Shown one piece after another: positions 2,309 through 20,744 of a stretch of DNA of 38,317 bases. The notes under the pieces were generated by a model. The model saw nothing but the letters and a program-made list of their open reading frames with translations, made no database searches and was not told where the DNA came from. The position numbers were made by a program, and so were the translations under genes. Source of the stretch: a virus; IMG/VR virus record IMGVR_UViG_3300037104_000410, positions 1-38,317 of that record; one strand, 5' to 3'. Within the stretch, counting starts at the first letter, position 1. Every line of letters begins with the position of its first letter.

Positions 2309-3073
2309 CATATCCCTAACTATTACTTTCAGGCTCTTACATGCCCTACTGACCTATTTCTAGGCGGGGAAACCGCTTCGGATCTCCCTCTTATGGTTTC
2401 CCATAAGATTAGACTATCACTTCACACTTGCGTGTGCCTCTGGATTTAGTCGTTGCGGCTAGACATTTATTTTCTGTTATGGCATACTGCATTCCTTTTA
2501 CAGAGGAATTTATATGACATGGACCAAAGTTGAGCTTGCCTATCTCGCGGGCATTATTGATGGTGAAGGAACAATTCAGATAGAAATCTATTGCAATCGA
2601 CGCGATAGACCTAATGCTCATTGTTTCACTTCTAGACTTAGCGTCATCAACACCAATGTTGATATTATAAAATGGATTAAGGATAAATTTGGAGGAAGCA
2701 CATATATGCGAAAAACCAAATTCAAAGAGACTAGAAAGGATACTTATGTTTGGCATATTCATGCCGACGGAATGCTTTCTATTCTCAAAGGAATTCTTCC
2801 TTATCTTATTATAAAAAAACAACACGCTCTTCTCGTTATTGAATTTAGAAGTACTTACCCTAAAGATAGAATCTATGGTCCCAATCGTGAGATTCCTCAA
2901 GAGATTAAAGATAAAAGATTCAATCTTATGCATAGTTTAAAACTTCTCAATAAAACAGGTCCTAAAAAATAAACCCTTGCCTCTGGTCACCATGCGCTAA
3001 TGCGTTTAGGCTTTCCAAGCAATTACCAGTGGTTTTACGACGGCAGATTAAATAACCTAAGCTGCTAAGCTTA
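2309..3073 (-). ncRNA. Group I self-splicing intron in the capsid gene
   Basis: About 765 nt, read on the minus strand. A P1 hairpin spans the 5' junction: exon AAATATCT pairs with GGTTATTT, with a U.G pair at the predicted cut after 3074 and a UAAGCU/AGCUUA extension. The core has a P4-like AATTGCTTGGAAA (about 3025), a P3 pairing CCACTGG/CCAGAGG (one mismatch), the P7 strands CGACTA and TAGTC near 2420-2452, and a CTTATGG-GAAA-CCATAAG hairpin after P7. The intron ends in G at 2309. The endonuclease gene occupies the long loop between P4-P6 and P7, as in the T4 td intron. Confidence 0.85.
2514..2972 (+). CDS. LAGLIDADG homing endonuclease, antisense to host intron
   Basis: A 152-residue protein with one LAGLIDADG motif near the N-terminus (LAGIIDGEG, residues about 12-20). 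It is followed by the usual beta-strands with basic residues (TFSRL-like segment, KDKFGGS, YVWHIHADG) and the lysine-rich end KKQHALLVIEF. Single-motif members act as homodimers that cut intronless alleles to spread the intron; that is family knowledge. The ribosome site CAGAGGAA precedes the ATG by about 7 nt. It is encoded opposite to the capsid transcript, so late transcription would run antisense through it; no strong promoter of its own was identified. Confidence 0.93.
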   Translation: MTWTKVELAYLAGIIDGEGTIQIEIYCNRRDRPNAHCFTSRLSVINTNVDIIKWIKDKFGGSTYMRKTKFKETRKDTYVWHIHADGMLSILKGILPYLIIKKQHALLVIEFRSTYPKDRIYGPNREIPQEIKDKRFNLMHSLKLLNKTGPKK

Positions 3074-3350
3074 AGATATTTGGGTGACCGTACCAATCAA
3101 TTTGCGCATCAATGTCTAATCTGTTTAAATTCATTGCTGGCGGATTTGTGCCAGAGGGGCCAAGTGGAACTGGCTGTGTAGGCAAGTTGTCGTAACGTGA
3201 CTGCCTTAAGATATTACCTTGGTTTTGCTCCATTGAAACATGATAGTTACCAACATGAGCAACCAAGTCAGGAAATGGACGTGACAGCATGCGCATGCAA
3301 AACTGTGTCGCCACTTCTGGGGCTAGGTTAGTGATTGTATTCATTGACAA
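3074..3350 (-). CDS. Major capsid protein, N4 gp56-like, exon 1
   Basis: First exon of the major capsid protein: 92 codons plus one base. It begins MSMNTITNL and ends in WYGHPNI just before the intron. Reading on without splicing adds only six intron-encoded residues and then a TAG, which would give a 97-residue fragment with no function. The basic patch around FPDLVAHVGNYHVSM and the later R-L-D-I-D-A-Q-I-D-W segment match the N-terminal arm and early beta-strands of the N4 gp56 type. It needs splicing to exon 2 (1626-2308) to make the complete protein. Confidence 0.85.
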
Positions 3351-6934: not shown

Positions 6935-7171
6935 TTAGTCTTGTTTTAGCATATTCAAATTCTTTTTCTCAGACGCCTTATTACGGTTCTGAATTGAATC
7001 TTGATACTTAGAATATGGTGTTGATTCTAATGCCATAACAGGCTTCTCCCAGCTTTGTGGATAAGCATTATGATGTGACAAGGCCTCATGGCCTCTTCCA
7101 CCATTCTTATTAGACTTAATGCCACCTTCTTTTCCATATGTAGCATCAGCTTCTTTGTGTCGGTAAACCAT
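6935..7171 (-). CDS. Small hydrophilic protein following the portal gene
   Basis: 78 residues, rich in Lys/Asn/Gly/Ser, probably disordered. It starts inside the portal C-terminus with an excellent GGAGGTATCAA-ATG site. Its N- and C-terminal ends resemble those of the gene at 6398-6619 (MVY..., Y-S/T-KYQ-N/D-SI). Located between portal and scaffold; function unknown, possibly a minor virion or assembly factor. Confidence 0.6.
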   Translation of the reverse strand: MVYRHKEADATYGKEGGIKSNKNGGRGHEALSHHNAYPQSWEKPVMALESTPYSKYQDSIQNRNKASEKKNLNMLKQD

Positions 7172-9173
7172 TTGATACCTCCGCAGGTTGGTTTAATTCT
7201 TTTAAATTCTGCAATATTCCTACAAACTTCTCAATATGTCCTAGATCGAGTTCTTGGAGTTTCTTGATTGCTTCAATCTTGCGTAACACACTGTCGTCCA
7301 ATTCGTCCATTGCCTTAGCTCTTCTTTCCTCTGCCATTGCATAATTATCCGCAATCTTAGAATCTCTTTCTCGTCCGATCGACCTATTTGTCTCAGCTTG
7401 TGATTGTAGAAGTTGGATATTGGCCTGAGCATTTGCCATTTCCATCTGTTGCTGTCCTTGCGCAGCTTTCGCTTGCTGCTCCTGCATTTGAGTGACATCA
7501 TCAATGTAATCCTGTTTATTTTGCAATGTAGATGACTTGAGCATCATTTGTGGGCTGAATTGCATACCAGCTTCTTGAGTAAGCGTAATCATTTGGGCAA
7601 ATTGATTTTGTTTCTGTGTCTGTGTATTCAATCCGTCTTCAATCTCAACATAGAATTTCTCTAAGTTGATATTGTAAAAGTCTTTAGAAGGTGGTCTTCC
7701 AAGGATTTTCTCAACTTTAGAAGGTGAATAGTTCTGTATTTCGTGTAATAATCCGTGTGATATCGAGGATTGCGCCAAGTCCAAATTATCGAATAAAGTA
7801 TTGAGAGAAGTGAGGGACGCGCCCTGTCTAAGGATTTCTTGTATACCAGTTTTCGAGTCATCTGCCATTCCCATTAATTCATCTGTTATACCCAATAAGC
7901 TTCTAGACAAGTCTGCAAGGTCGCTAGTCATCTGAAATGCACTAGGATCTATAGACGGTGGCTGCATGGGCATAACTACATCTCTAGGATTATACCCTTT
8001 CTTAATTGGAGTGGCTTGTCCTGGGCCTGTTTTAAAGGCGTCGTTTTTATCAAGTAAAGCATCCTCGGTAACATAGATACCACTATTGGGTAGACTTTCG
8101 AGTACGTCCAATTGGATTTGCATTTTTCTATTAAAAAGATATTGGCTATCCCTGATAACACGTGGGCCACCATAGAAACGAAAATTGTAATTGACAGAAT
8201 CAGGATCAAAATAAGCGACAGTAGGGGTAAAATCATATTGATCAGCATAATATTCTTCATAAACTACTTTGTCATTTACTGCTATCGCTAGGTTGATACA
8301 TGGTTTACGAACGGTTAGTCTTTCAAGTTCCTCTTTCTCCTCATCAGAGAACTCCATATCAATCCACATGTCAATGGTTTCTTTGTCTCCCTTGACTTCA
8401 TACGTTTCAGACCTAGAATAACTATGGACAAGTTTAGCTTCTCTATCTGTGTAATAATAGAATTGGTCGTACGCATAATTATCTTTTCTTCTGCGCTGCA
8501 TCTGATAGCTTTCTGGCATGAACGTAAAGCGGATTGAACTATTATATGTAGCTGGAATGAATTTCTTTTCTTTTCTAATACCAGGTATTAGTTGGTCTAA
8601 CATTTTACCGCTAACGAAGTCTCTAGTCCAAATGAATCGGCAATCTGTAAGGCGCATATCACGCCACCAAGGATCCATTATACATGTGGTCGGGGCATAG
8701 TTTTTAAGGCGCACAATACCATCAACAGGGTCTTGCGTATAATCTATCCAACGCTTTGTTAAATTAAGTCCTGTTACCCAAGCTGTATCAAATCCTTGTG
8801 TTATTTTGTGAAGCATTTTGTCAGCATTCATTGTCCACATTAAGCAACCTGAATAGTCATCTGCAACTTGCTGATAACGATCTTCGGATGGCACAACAAC
8901 GCTTGATTTACGGTGCTTACTTTGATGTCCGACAATGACATGTCTATGTGCGTGTATTAAGTTGAAACAAAATTTTTGATTTTGGTATTGCTGACCATCA
9001 AGTCCAGCTAAGTATCTTTGATCCCCTAACGCAAAACGCCTATCTATATTTGATTGATTCCAATAAGTCTGCCATTGTGTTTGTGCAGATAAATAACATT
9101 CATCCATCATCTTTTGAGTGGATATCTTGTTGTCTTGAAGCCGATCAAAGACGGAAGGGTCTTGAGCCATCAT
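7146..9173 (-). CDS. Portal protein
   Basis: 675 residues, directly downstream of the large terminase with ATGA overlap, the standard position. Consistent features: an N-terminal helical region (YLSAQTQWQTYWNQ...RRFALGDQ), Asp/Trp-rich turns (MDPWWRDMRLTDCRFIWTRD), the long helix near FNRKMQIQLDVLESLP, a Gln-rich coiled-coil stretch (EQQAKAAQGQQQMEMANAQA), and a charged helical C-terminus. Length and layout match the large portals of P22/N4-like podoviruses. The dodecameric portal forms the DNA-entry vertex and docks the terminase and the gp4-like adaptor. The start is the first of two adjacent ATGs. Confidence 0.88.
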   Translation of the reverse strand: MMAQDPSVFDRLQDNKISTQKMMDECYLSAQTQWQTYWNQSNIDRRFALGDQRYLAGLDGQQYQNQKFCFNLIHAHRHVIVGHQSKHRKSSVVVPSEDRYQQVADDYSGCLMWTMNADKMLHKITQGFDTAWVTGLNLTKRWIDYTQDPVDGIVRLKNYAPTTCIMDPWWRDMRLTDCRFIWTRDFVSGKMLDQLIPGIRKEKKFIPATYNSSIRFTFMPESYQMQRRRKDNYAYDQFYYYTDREAKLVHSYSRSETYEVKGDKETIDMWIDMEFSDEEKEELERLTVRKPCINLAIAVNDKVVYEEYYADQYDFTPTVAYFDPDSVNYNFRFYGGPRVIRDSQYLFNRKMQIQLDVLESLPNSGIYVTEDALLDKNDAFKTGPGQATPIKKGYNPRDVVMPMQPPSIDPSAFQMTSDLADLSRSLLGITDELMGMADDSKTGIQEILRQGASLTSLNTLFDNLDLAQSSISHGLLHEIQNYSPSKVEKILGRPPSKDFYNINLEKFYVEIEDGLNTQTQKQNQFAQMITLTQEAGMQFSPQMMLKSSTLQNKQDYIDDVTQMQEQQAKAAQGQQQMEMANAQANIQLLQSQAETNRSIGRERDSKIADNYAMAEERRAKAMDELDDSVLRKIEAIKKLQELDLGHIEKFVGILQNLKELNQPAEVSNGLPTQRS

Positions 9174-10574
9174 CGTAAGAATCCTGGGTGAGAAATATTA
9201 TTTTGCATATTATCATAGTAATTATTATTTTTCTTTATATTACTCCATTCCGATTTATGCTCACCAGAAATATATCCGTCTCTTATTGCAATTGACATAT
9301 AGCGAAATGCGTCTGATGCGTGACTCGTCCAGTCGTGACAAGGTTCTTTTTTATAACGGTCAAGTTTCTCATCATATTCAGTATGATATGATTGAAGACA
9401 AGAAAGAAGATATTCGCATTTAGCCGAATCAAATTGCATTCTAGGAAATAGACCTTTGGATATTTCTATACCATCCAATATAGACTTGCTATTAGGTATT
9501 ACTGTCATATTGAAACCCATTTGCTCAGCTATATCAACAAATGTACTGCCTGTTTGTACTGATCTGTTCTTACCATCATGCGGTGCGAAGTTTATCCCTA
9601 GCTGATATCCTCTATTGCGTACCTCTGTTATCGATCCAACCATAGCCAAGTTTTTAGTTTCATAATGGTCGATAACATTGATCGAATTGCCAATAAGCTG
9701 AAAAAATATAACGCTTGTGGCATCCAAACCAATATCCCAAGCAGTGTGTACCAGATAAGTTTTGTCATAAGGCACATTACAAACCATGTTGTTACGAGTA
9801 GATTCAATAACATATTTACCATAGATCGATCCCTCGATTAAACCTTCAAATGAACAGAAGTATTCTTGTTGGATAAACTCTTCCGAACGTCCCTCGTCAC
9901 GCAGCTCTTGCAAACGCTTAGCAGACATGAGTTGTGTATCATCATTAGTGATTAGCTCAGTAAACCATTTAGAAGGATTCTTTTTTCCGTTTACGAAAAG
10001 CTTGTGGAAATGATTCTTTCCCCTAGGAGTACTAATAAAAATAGCGATACCGCCATTATCAGGATCGTCCACAATAGGCCCCAAGATTTCCCAAGCTTTA
10101 GGATTGGTCTTAGCATATTCGCTAAATACAATAATCTTAGGATTTGTGCCAATAAGAGAGTCATAGCAATCACTACCGACAATTTGGAATATAGAACCAT
10201 TGGTAAACTTTACTCTCATCTCTTGATTGTTAATGTTTTCGACTAAGCTTTCTGGGAAATGATTCTTGAAAGGAAAACCTGTATGGTCAATCGAGTTCCA
10301 GATGACTTTACGACCTTGTGAAATTTCAGGTAAGCAATAGAAGCATGTACAGGCCGTTTTGATGACCCCTGAGAAGGAAGGATCGGCAATTGTTTTAATG
10401 CACCAATTGAGGACTGATTTATCTTTTCCTGATCCCCTACTAATCTAATAATAGGGGATTTCAACCATGTCTTCGTGGCCATACTACTGCTGCTCTCTTT
10501 ATACCTGAATCTAAAGCATCTAAAAGAGGCAATTGATACCAACGAGGTTCATAGTTTACAGGAAGAGTAGTCAT
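9170..10574 (-). CDS. terL: Large terminase, interrupted in Walker A by a 37-nt gap
   Basis: DNA-packaging ATPase/nuclease. The gene starts at ATG 10574 (AAGG upstream, ATGA overlap). Its 37 codons run through YEPRWYQLPLLDALDSG and KRAAVVWPRRHG, then hit TGA at 10463-10461. Frame-matched coding resumes after 10427 with KDKSVLNWCIK, exactly completing the RRHGKD Walker A. After the gap come Walker B (IIVFSE), the nuclease DIGLD, and the final HASDAFRY, ending at 9170. Skipping 37 nt gives a 455-residue protein of normal length. Starting instead at ATG 10219 would lose the whole ATP site. Translational bypass, RNA removal of the gap, gene decay and assembly error are all possible. Confidence 0.85.
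10427..10463 (-). other. 37-nt hairpin gap inside terL, candidate translational bypass element
   Basis: On the coding strand the upstream frame reads CGA AGA CAT GGT then TGA. The gap contains a perfect ATCCCCTA/TAGGGGAT repeat (10459-10452, 10439-10432) that can extend through a G.U pair and two more pairs to 11 bp around a six-base loop. It ends in GGA (10429-10427), after which AAA GAT AAA restores the frame. This parallels T4 gene 60: a glycine take-off codon next to a stop, a hairpin in the gap, a glycine landing codon, and a purine-rich AGGGGA just before landing. A second GGA at 10435-10433 is an alternative landing site. Confidence 0.6.
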
Positions 10575-11521: not shown

Positions 11522-11714
11522 TTAATTCATTCCTTAAAGCTTTATATTGATCAATCATAGCCTGTGGGACAGTATGACCCAAAAGCTTTTTCTTTCTTTC
11601 CCTAGTAAGCAAAGGGTAAGCGCAAAGCTCACACATATATTTTCCATTGCGGACAACAGTGCAATAGAGCCTTGTGCATTCGCACATTCTAACTAGGTTA
11701 TTCGTTATCTCCAT
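11505..11714 (-). CDS. Small zinc-ribbon protein
   Basis: 69 residues with C-x-C...C and a CELC pair (MCECTRLYCTVVRNGKYMCELC), suggesting one zinc-binding ribbon, followed by a basic helix (RERKKKLLGH). The start at 11714 has AAGGTGCTTG upstream. Both ends overlap neighbours (GroES-like gene upstream, small terminase downstream). Function unknown. Confidence 0.6.
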   Translation of the reverse strand: MEITNNLVRMCECTRLYCTVVRNGKYMCELCAYPLLTRERKKKLLGHTVPQAMIDQYKALRNELNGKTT

Positions 11715-11991
11715 CAAGCACCTTGGCTATGATTTCTTCTGTTTTGAGGATCAATAGGTTTATACCATCCTCAGTAATAGGCGCTCCCCCGAATTTACGT
11801 ATGATGATTGTATCGCCTACTTTAAAGTTTTGTATGCAATCTTTAGGTGGTTTTGGATTGATTGCATGGACGATGGCACGTACAAGCTCATTGTTCTCTT
11901 TAACTGGGATAAGAATCCCTTTGACGACTTGTTCTTTGTTTTCGATTTTTTTAACGATGACATAGTCTTGGAGTGGTATAATTTTAGTCAT
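11698..11991 (-). CDS. GroES-like co-chaperonin (Cpn10)
   Basis: 97 residues matching the GroES fold in order: N-terminal strand IIPLQDYVIVKK, a mobile-loop region NKEQVVKGILIP (residues about 18-29; GIL is the GroEL-binding hydrophobic tripeptide), the central strand ELVRAIVHAINP, the FKVGDTIIIRKFGG barrel motif, and the C-terminal strand LLILKTEEIIAKV. Phage versions such as T4 gp31 team with host GroEL to fold the capsid protein. Its place in the packaging/capsid operon fits that. The ATG at 11991 overlaps the previous stop; an in-frame GTG at 12003 lacks a ribosome site. No GroEL is encoded here. Confidence 0.85.
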   Translation of the reverse strand: MTKIIPLQDYVIVKKIENKEQVVKGILIPVKENNELVRAIVHAINPKPPKDCIQNFKVGDTIIIRKFGGAPITEDGINLLILKTEEIIAKVLDGDNE

Positions 11992-12160
11992 GTAATGCTT
12001 CACTTATTTTTTGTTTTAATTGATTAATAGTAATATTTTGTCGTTTTGCTTCTATCTTTAATTTATCTTCATATTCTTTTTTAAAATCTCTATATTTTGG
12101 GCATGCATTGCACCATTCCTTTACTTTTTCTGGATGCGAATCTAAAGACAATCGTTCCAT
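11984..12160 (-). CDS. Small helical protein with a Cys pair
   Basis: 58 residues, below typical ORF cut-offs. It starts MERLSLDSHP and contains WCNACPKY, then a long basic helix (FKKEYEDKLKIEAKRQNI). Tight packing between its neighbours (its stop overlaps the start of the GroES-like gene) supports it as real. Unknown function. Confidence 0.55.
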   Translation of the reverse strand: MERLSLDSHPEKVKEWCNACPKYRDFKKEYEDKLKIEAKRQNITINQLKQKISEALHD

Positions 12161-20548: not shown

Positions 20549-20621
20549 TAGGAAGTCGTCTAAAAGGAAAGACATGCGACGGAGTAGGCGCAAAATGAAG
20601 GTTCAAATCCTTCTTTCCTTT
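20549..20621 (+). tRNA. tRNA-like element with aberrant anticodon arm
   Basis: 73 bases, exact tRNA length. Acceptor TAGGAAG pairs with TTTCCTT (terminal T-T mismatch, one G.U). D-stem is GTC/GAC with GG in its loop, and the T-arm is perfect: GAAGG-TTCAAAT-CCTTC. The anticodon arm is wrong: TGCG/CGCA flanks a ten-base loop with no U33. A competing fold pairs AAGGAAA (20564-20570) with TTTCCTT, removing the D-arm. It may be a decayed tRNA or a deliberate mimic. No CCA is encoded. Confidence 0.45.
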
Positions 20622-20622
20622 T

Positions 20623-20712
20623 GATGAAGTAGCTCAATGGTAGAGCAATACTTTTACCTTGCTCCTAGCCTGGTAATAGTATAGGTCGAGGGTTCAATTC
20701 CTTCCTTCATCA
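20623..20712 (+). tRNA. tRNA gene with a 25-nt anticodon loop (18-nt insertion)
   Basis: All other tRNA parts are canonical: acceptor GATGAAG/CTTCATC perfect, TA, D-stem GCTC/GAGC with AATGGTA loop, A26, anticodon stem ATACT/AGTAT perfect, five-base variable loop AGGTC, T-arm GAGGG-TTCAATT-CCTTC, A73. The loop between the anticodon strands is 25 bases, not 7, and can pair TTACC/GGTAA. Removing 18 bases at the four positions that keep U33 and A37 would give anticodon GTA, TTA, TAA or TAC, so the identity is undetermined. It is too short for a group I intron. Confidence 0.75.
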
Positions 20713-20744
20713 TTGAATATATACAAAAACAGGATTCCATATAC

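Follow-up and report, generated by a model that had tools for sequence, protein, structure and literature searches.

In phages, gene 60 of T4 is the one firmly established case of efficient translational bypassing; counterparts have long been expected, and few have been found (PMC5009743, PMC3014915). In T4, mobA and 60.1 precede gene 60, whose bypassed gap is 50 nt long (PMC3014915, PMC2988022), and the gap has been proposed to protect the gene against the neighbouring endonuclease (PMC5009743). The T4 take-off and landing codons are both GGA. The byp elements of Magnusiomyces capitatus mitochondria, in comparison, tolerate imperfectly matched landing codons (PMC5009743). For the terminase of Streptomyces phage Hau3, a possible bypass tied to UUA decoding has been suggested (cited in PMC5009743).

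The locus that we compare with these systems lies in a 38,317-nt record of the IMG/VR viral collection, a single metagenomic contig that we refer to in its entirety as the window. Its minus-strand genes between ~7,100 and 11,500 include the portal gene (7146-9173, Pfam P22_portal), the gene for the large terminase (TerL) and small upstream ORFs; a phage-encoded GroES-like co-chaperonin is found at 11698-12003 (minus strand). The terL gene starts with the ATG at 10574 and runs for 37 codons to RRHG, where it meets a TGA at 10463; the TerL frame restarts 37 nt on with AAA GAT at 10426 (KDKSVLNW) and continues for 418 codons to 9170. If the 37 nt are skipped, the joined protein has 455 amino acids and matches the PHROG terminase profile phrog_2 (E 9e-19, residues 3 to 418 covered); no solved structure matched it in sequence. 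The first-pass annotation had proposed this arrangement, which the coordinates and lengths confirm, and had named a second intact terminase gene as a finding that would refute it; none of the window's ORFs encodes another terminase. The features, all on the minus strand, are:

10464..10574, minus strand: TerL 5' segment, 37 codons, MTTLPVNYEPRWYQLPLLDALDSGIKRAAVVWPRRHG (ORF translation, aligned with intact relatives)
10464..10466, minus strand: candidate take-off codon GGT, the Gly of the P-loop (GGT likewise in the relatives L002 and L003)
10427..10463, minus strand: 37-nt insert, TGAAATCCCCTATTATTAGATTAGTAGGGGATCAGGA (missing from relatives in the alignment)
10461..10463, minus strand: TGA stop immediately 3' of the take-off codon (read from the sequence)
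10432..10459, minus strand: predicted hairpin of 11 pairs (one G-U) with a 6-nt loop, -16.1 kcal/mol (folding)
10433..10438, minus strand: purine-rich AGGGGA 5' of the landing codon, Shine-Dalgarno-like by resemblance only
10427..10429, minus strand: candidate landing codon GGA
9170..10426, minus strand: TerL 3' segment, 418 codons from KDKSVLNW to the stop, with the remaining ATPase and the nuclease (ORF and profile)

The hairpin, with the arms ATCCCCTATTA and TAGTAGGGGAT (10459-10432), begins 4 nt past the take-off codon, which lies outside the stem. Its predicted stability was matched by 6 of 3000 37-mers drawn at random from the window and by none of 2000 mononucleotide shuffles, and when codon plus gap were folded together 7 of 1000 dinucleotide shuffles did as well (z-score -3.1). 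Frame 0 of the insert contains TGA, TAG and TAG, the frame in which TerL resumes contains a TAG (the sixth codon of the +1 frame from GGT), and the third frame, though open, never leads into TerL; a single frameshift thus cannot make the protein, and the one stop-free shift into the downstream frame that a programmed frameshift would use is absent. A change of code with TGA read as Trp was also considered and dropped, as the ribosome would still meet TAG TAG. Both the stem with its AGGGGA and GGA (10438-10433 and 10429-10427), given in the first-pass annotation as 8 perfect pairs extendable to about 11, and the fate of the shifted frames agree with that annotation.

The two nearest relatives, L002 (78% identical) and L003 (67%), have an uninterrupted CATGGTAAAGA at the site, and DNA alignment with them, which had been suggested as a check, gives the window exactly 37 extra bases between GGT and AAAGAT, with GG repeats on both sides. 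The window TerL also has about five extra in-frame codons relative to L002 after ADPSF, in a variable loop (10426-10340, minus strand). The viral collection yielded no relative that shares the insert, and the window contains no further copy of the hairpin. The possibility that the hairpin is a mobile repeat was rejected: its exact stem with a free loop occurs in only two viral contigs (L082 and L083), in both as an ordinary terminator, and otherwise in nine bacterial genome contigs.

Elsewhere in the window, a tRNA gene (20622-20713, plus strand) has an 18-nt hairpin insert in its anticodon loop (ATACT-TT TTACC...GGTAA T-AGTAT); ARAGORN classes this gene as an ochre-stop tRNA, and removal of the 18 nt leaves a standard cloverleaf. 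This insert could be another skipped or processed one, or a sign of decay. A second tRNA-like gene (20549-20621, plus strand, 37.5 bits) has an oversized anticodon loop. A GDSL-type hydrolase is encoded by the phage at 22952-23584 (plus strand).

The resemblance to T4 gene 60, which the first-pass annotation had extended to the byp elements, is close in some respects and not in others. Like T4, the window has a short gap near the 5' end of the coding region (after codon 46 in T4, codon 37 in the window) that is absent in relatives (PMC3014915, PMC5009743), and in both a Gly take-off codon is followed by a stop, a stable hairpin and a Gly landing codon, so that two disjoint segments make up one known protein, here TerL. 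Unlike in T4, the gene is a different one, GGT and GGA match in their first two bases but not in the third, the hairpin excludes the take-off codon (the T4 hairpin includes it), and terL has no adjacent endonuclease. A stem-loop is predicted upstream of the site, without comparative support, and we saw no KKYK-like motif, the T4 type of nascent-peptide signal. The T4 architecture holds for the gap, the hairpin and the stop after GGT, but not for codon matching or the place of the take-off codon in the stem. We do not class the insert as a member of the gene 60 type, since the codons are not identical and an adjacent endonuclease is lacking, yet bypass-type skipping appears somewhat likelier than not, and in that sense the insert probably works like gene 60.

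The Magnusiomyces byps are also short, interrupt essential genes and have to be skipped, but they occupy 81 sites in one genome, whereas here there is one per phage genome, at one codon boundary of terL. The Hau3 case, compared by its description, shares the suggestion of bypassing in a terminase gene but concerns UUA decoding rather than avoidance of an insert. Inteins in the TerL P-loop interrupt the same motif but are removed at the protein level, and an intein is excluded for the window by the stops inside the insert and its length of only 37 nt.

To see how P-loops vary, we surveyed 80 TerL relatives: 76 were intact, three contained inteins and one was lost at a contig end. A first pattern scan (W[HPQ]RRxG, stop, gap, GlyLysAsp, with both the stop and a landing Gly required) returned 27 hits, one of which, L100, is a true terminase; the other 26, and the remaining hits of two further scans, were chance matches outside any terminase P-loop. 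In L100, RRAG ending in GGC is followed by TGACCCTGCGGGGTCAGTAACTAGGA (26 nt) and then by AAAGAT, with 404 codons after the insert. A relaxed scan, with no requirement for a stop codon or for a hairpin, gave, among the matches listed, at least three more TerLs with inserts: L293 and L401, which share one of 43 nt (GTGTGCCCCCCGGTCTGAGAGGGCTGGGGGGCGCCGTCAAGGC), and L309, with one of 39 nt (GTACGTCCCCCGTCCTGGAAGGGGCGGGGGAAACAAGGA). All four come from metagenomic phages, and in each the insert separates the Gly codon from the Lys codon of RRxGKD, a motif in which R, R, G, K and D do not vary among the terminases that we aligned. By the method that gives the T4 gene 60 gap a z-score of -2.3, the inserts of L100, L293 and L309 score -2.8, -5.5 and -3.3, and the terminase inserts are thus at least as stable relative to their shuffles.

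These inserts vary in most other respects. Their lengths modulo 3 are 1 (window), 2 (L100), 1 (L293) and 0 (L309). The take-off codon is GGT in the window and L309 and GGC in L100 and L293, and the landing codon is GGA in the window, L100 and L309 and GGC in L293, where alone the two match fully. A TGA directly follows the take-off codon in the window and L100, but no stop does so in L293 or L309. In L100, as in the window, the resume frame contains a stop within the insert (TAG or TAA), so a single frameshift would be of no help in either; the L309 insert keeps the frame and contains no stop, and in L293 the +1 frame is open, so these two do not by themselves demand bypassing (one +1 shift would be possible in L293).

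The search had its negatives. There were no inserts among the best-listed matches in cultured phages; the same pattern run on 398 Pseudomonadota genomes as a negative control matched 24, in none of them at a terminase; and the 32 readable P-loops of close relatives of the L100 terminase had no further insert, nor did relatives of its endonuclease. A terminase 69 nt longer than expected, in Burkholderia cenocepacia H141, has an intact P-loop with the extra length elsewhere. Our literature searches, which covered openly accessible journal papers, did not turn up hairpin inserts in the P-loop of a terminase.

The L293 and L401 pair permits a look at selection. Their inserts are identical, and the 200 codons that follow the insert show 17 synonymous substitutions and not one nonsynonymous; for the full 429 codons, dN = 0.010 and dS = 0.284, a ratio of about 0.035. 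On this basis the insert-bearing terminase is evolving as a working gene under strong purifying selection, although the two contigs were recovered from a single metagenome and may have recombined. Conservation of the insert itself beyond the neutral expectation was also considered but dropped, because local divergence is low. The L293 and L309 TerLs are 55% identical and their inserts are similar (3 of 2000 shuffles were as good) with a 4-nt length difference, so they appear to share one insert for which the reading frame seemingly does not matter. If homologous, the inserts have changed their frame relation while being kept, as expected if they are skipped in any frame.

In L100, an HNH endonuclease ORF (PHROG E 8e-64; minus strand, about 10120-9375) lies directly upstream of terL and overlaps its start, and the TerL N-terminus (MSRTIEIPN) is repeated ahead of this ORF; together with the 26-nt P-loop insert, these likely form a homing cassette, in the same order of parts as mobA and gene 60 in T4. 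No homing endonuclease was recognised beside the window terL. The three P-loop inteins of the survey (L021, L029 and L076) are full protein introns of roughly 160-350 residues between RR and SGKD, upstream of the TerL match and about two codons from the hairpin site, which makes the P-loop motif a hotspot for intervening elements of different types.

Hairpins at the same boundary in other phages, an HNH neighbour in L100 and selection behind the L293/L401 insert make skipping far more likely than a single example would. We therefore favour the reading, at a probability of roughly 0.57, that the 37-nt insert is a hairpin element between the P-loop Gly and Lys codons that is skipped during expression, most likely by translational bypassing. 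Its main doubts for the window are the unmatched wobble base and the absent endonuclease, and the purifying-selection case belongs to another lineage.

The strongest alternative, though an unlikely one, is that the window terL is broken and nothing is skipped, either because a hairpin has recently entered a phage genome that is dead or in the minority or because of an assembly fault. It draws on the single metagenomic contig, the lack of a same-insert relative, the differing codons and the missing endonuclease neighbour, and the first-pass annotation's view that an essential position makes decay unlikely is an argument rather than evidence in this setting. Against it, the other window genes alignable to L003 are uninterrupted and have no such inserts, with the sole exception of the capsid gene, and the genome does not look generally decayed; hairpins recur at the same codon boundary elsewhere, which an assembly fault would not do, and selection acts behind the L293/L401 insert. 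The capsid exception is due to a group I intron of 771 nt (RF00028, 28.8 bits, below the gathering threshold; 2316-3086, minus strand) whose 5' exon ends in T and which itself ends in G; within the intron, the plus strand has an ORF for a LAGLIDADG-type endonuclease (2514-2972), and L002 and L003 have no such intron.

Less likely again is that the insert, as an RNA-processing unit of very small size, is cut out of the mRNA before the ribosome meets it. This would account equally well for all three length classes and the apparent frame independence, and the phage does have a group I intron elsewhere; but no group I or II intron core at the 37-nt insert was matched in Rfam, and 26-43 nt is, to our knowledge, too short for any self-splicing intron. 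An archaeal bulge-helix-bulge intron has two bulges, with 4 pairs between them, at the splice sites, whereas these inserts fold as plain hairpins without paired bulges, and we know of no bacterial activity that excises and religates such small hairpins.

It seems very improbable that the hairpin serves as a transcription terminator or regulatory switch to shut TerL down, the gene being repaired now and then by deletion of the insert from the DNA: the stem does resemble the ordinary terminators of L082 and L083, and the GG repeats could permit precise deletion, but no T-tract follows the hairpin on the coding strand, recurrence at the exact Gly/Lys boundary would go unexplained and the insert is kept in both L293 and L401. 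Slightly less probable still, frameshifting and/or stop readthrough would put about 12 extra residues into the P-loop, for which the open L309 and L293 frames speak, whereas the TAG or TAA in the window and L100 resume frames would demand two recoding events and twelve residues within the invariant RRxGKD should abolish ATP binding.

Bypassing of the window insert would proceed with GGU in the P-site and UGA in the A-site: the hairpin would fold the gap away, peptidyl-tRNA-Gly would detach and re-pair at GGA beside AAA GAU, and a normal 455-residue terminase would result. We infer here both the ribosome as the agent and skipping in the window phage. The probable reason for the retention or spread of the inserts is that they disrupt a target of homing endonucleases or inteins within the conserved codons of the P-loop, along the lines suggested for T4 gene 60; this protective role, too, we infer.

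More tentatively, and with slightly less than even odds, TerL P-loops may be a recurrent site for diverse hairpins (26-43 nt so far) that are skipped in any frame, a widespread class of bypass shielding the gene from homing endonucleases and inteins. If true, such natural inserts at one fixed boundary, varying in length, codon match and stop placement, would help to reveal which signals bypassing really needs, and would connect bypassing with the arms race in which phage genes and homing endonucleases are engaged.
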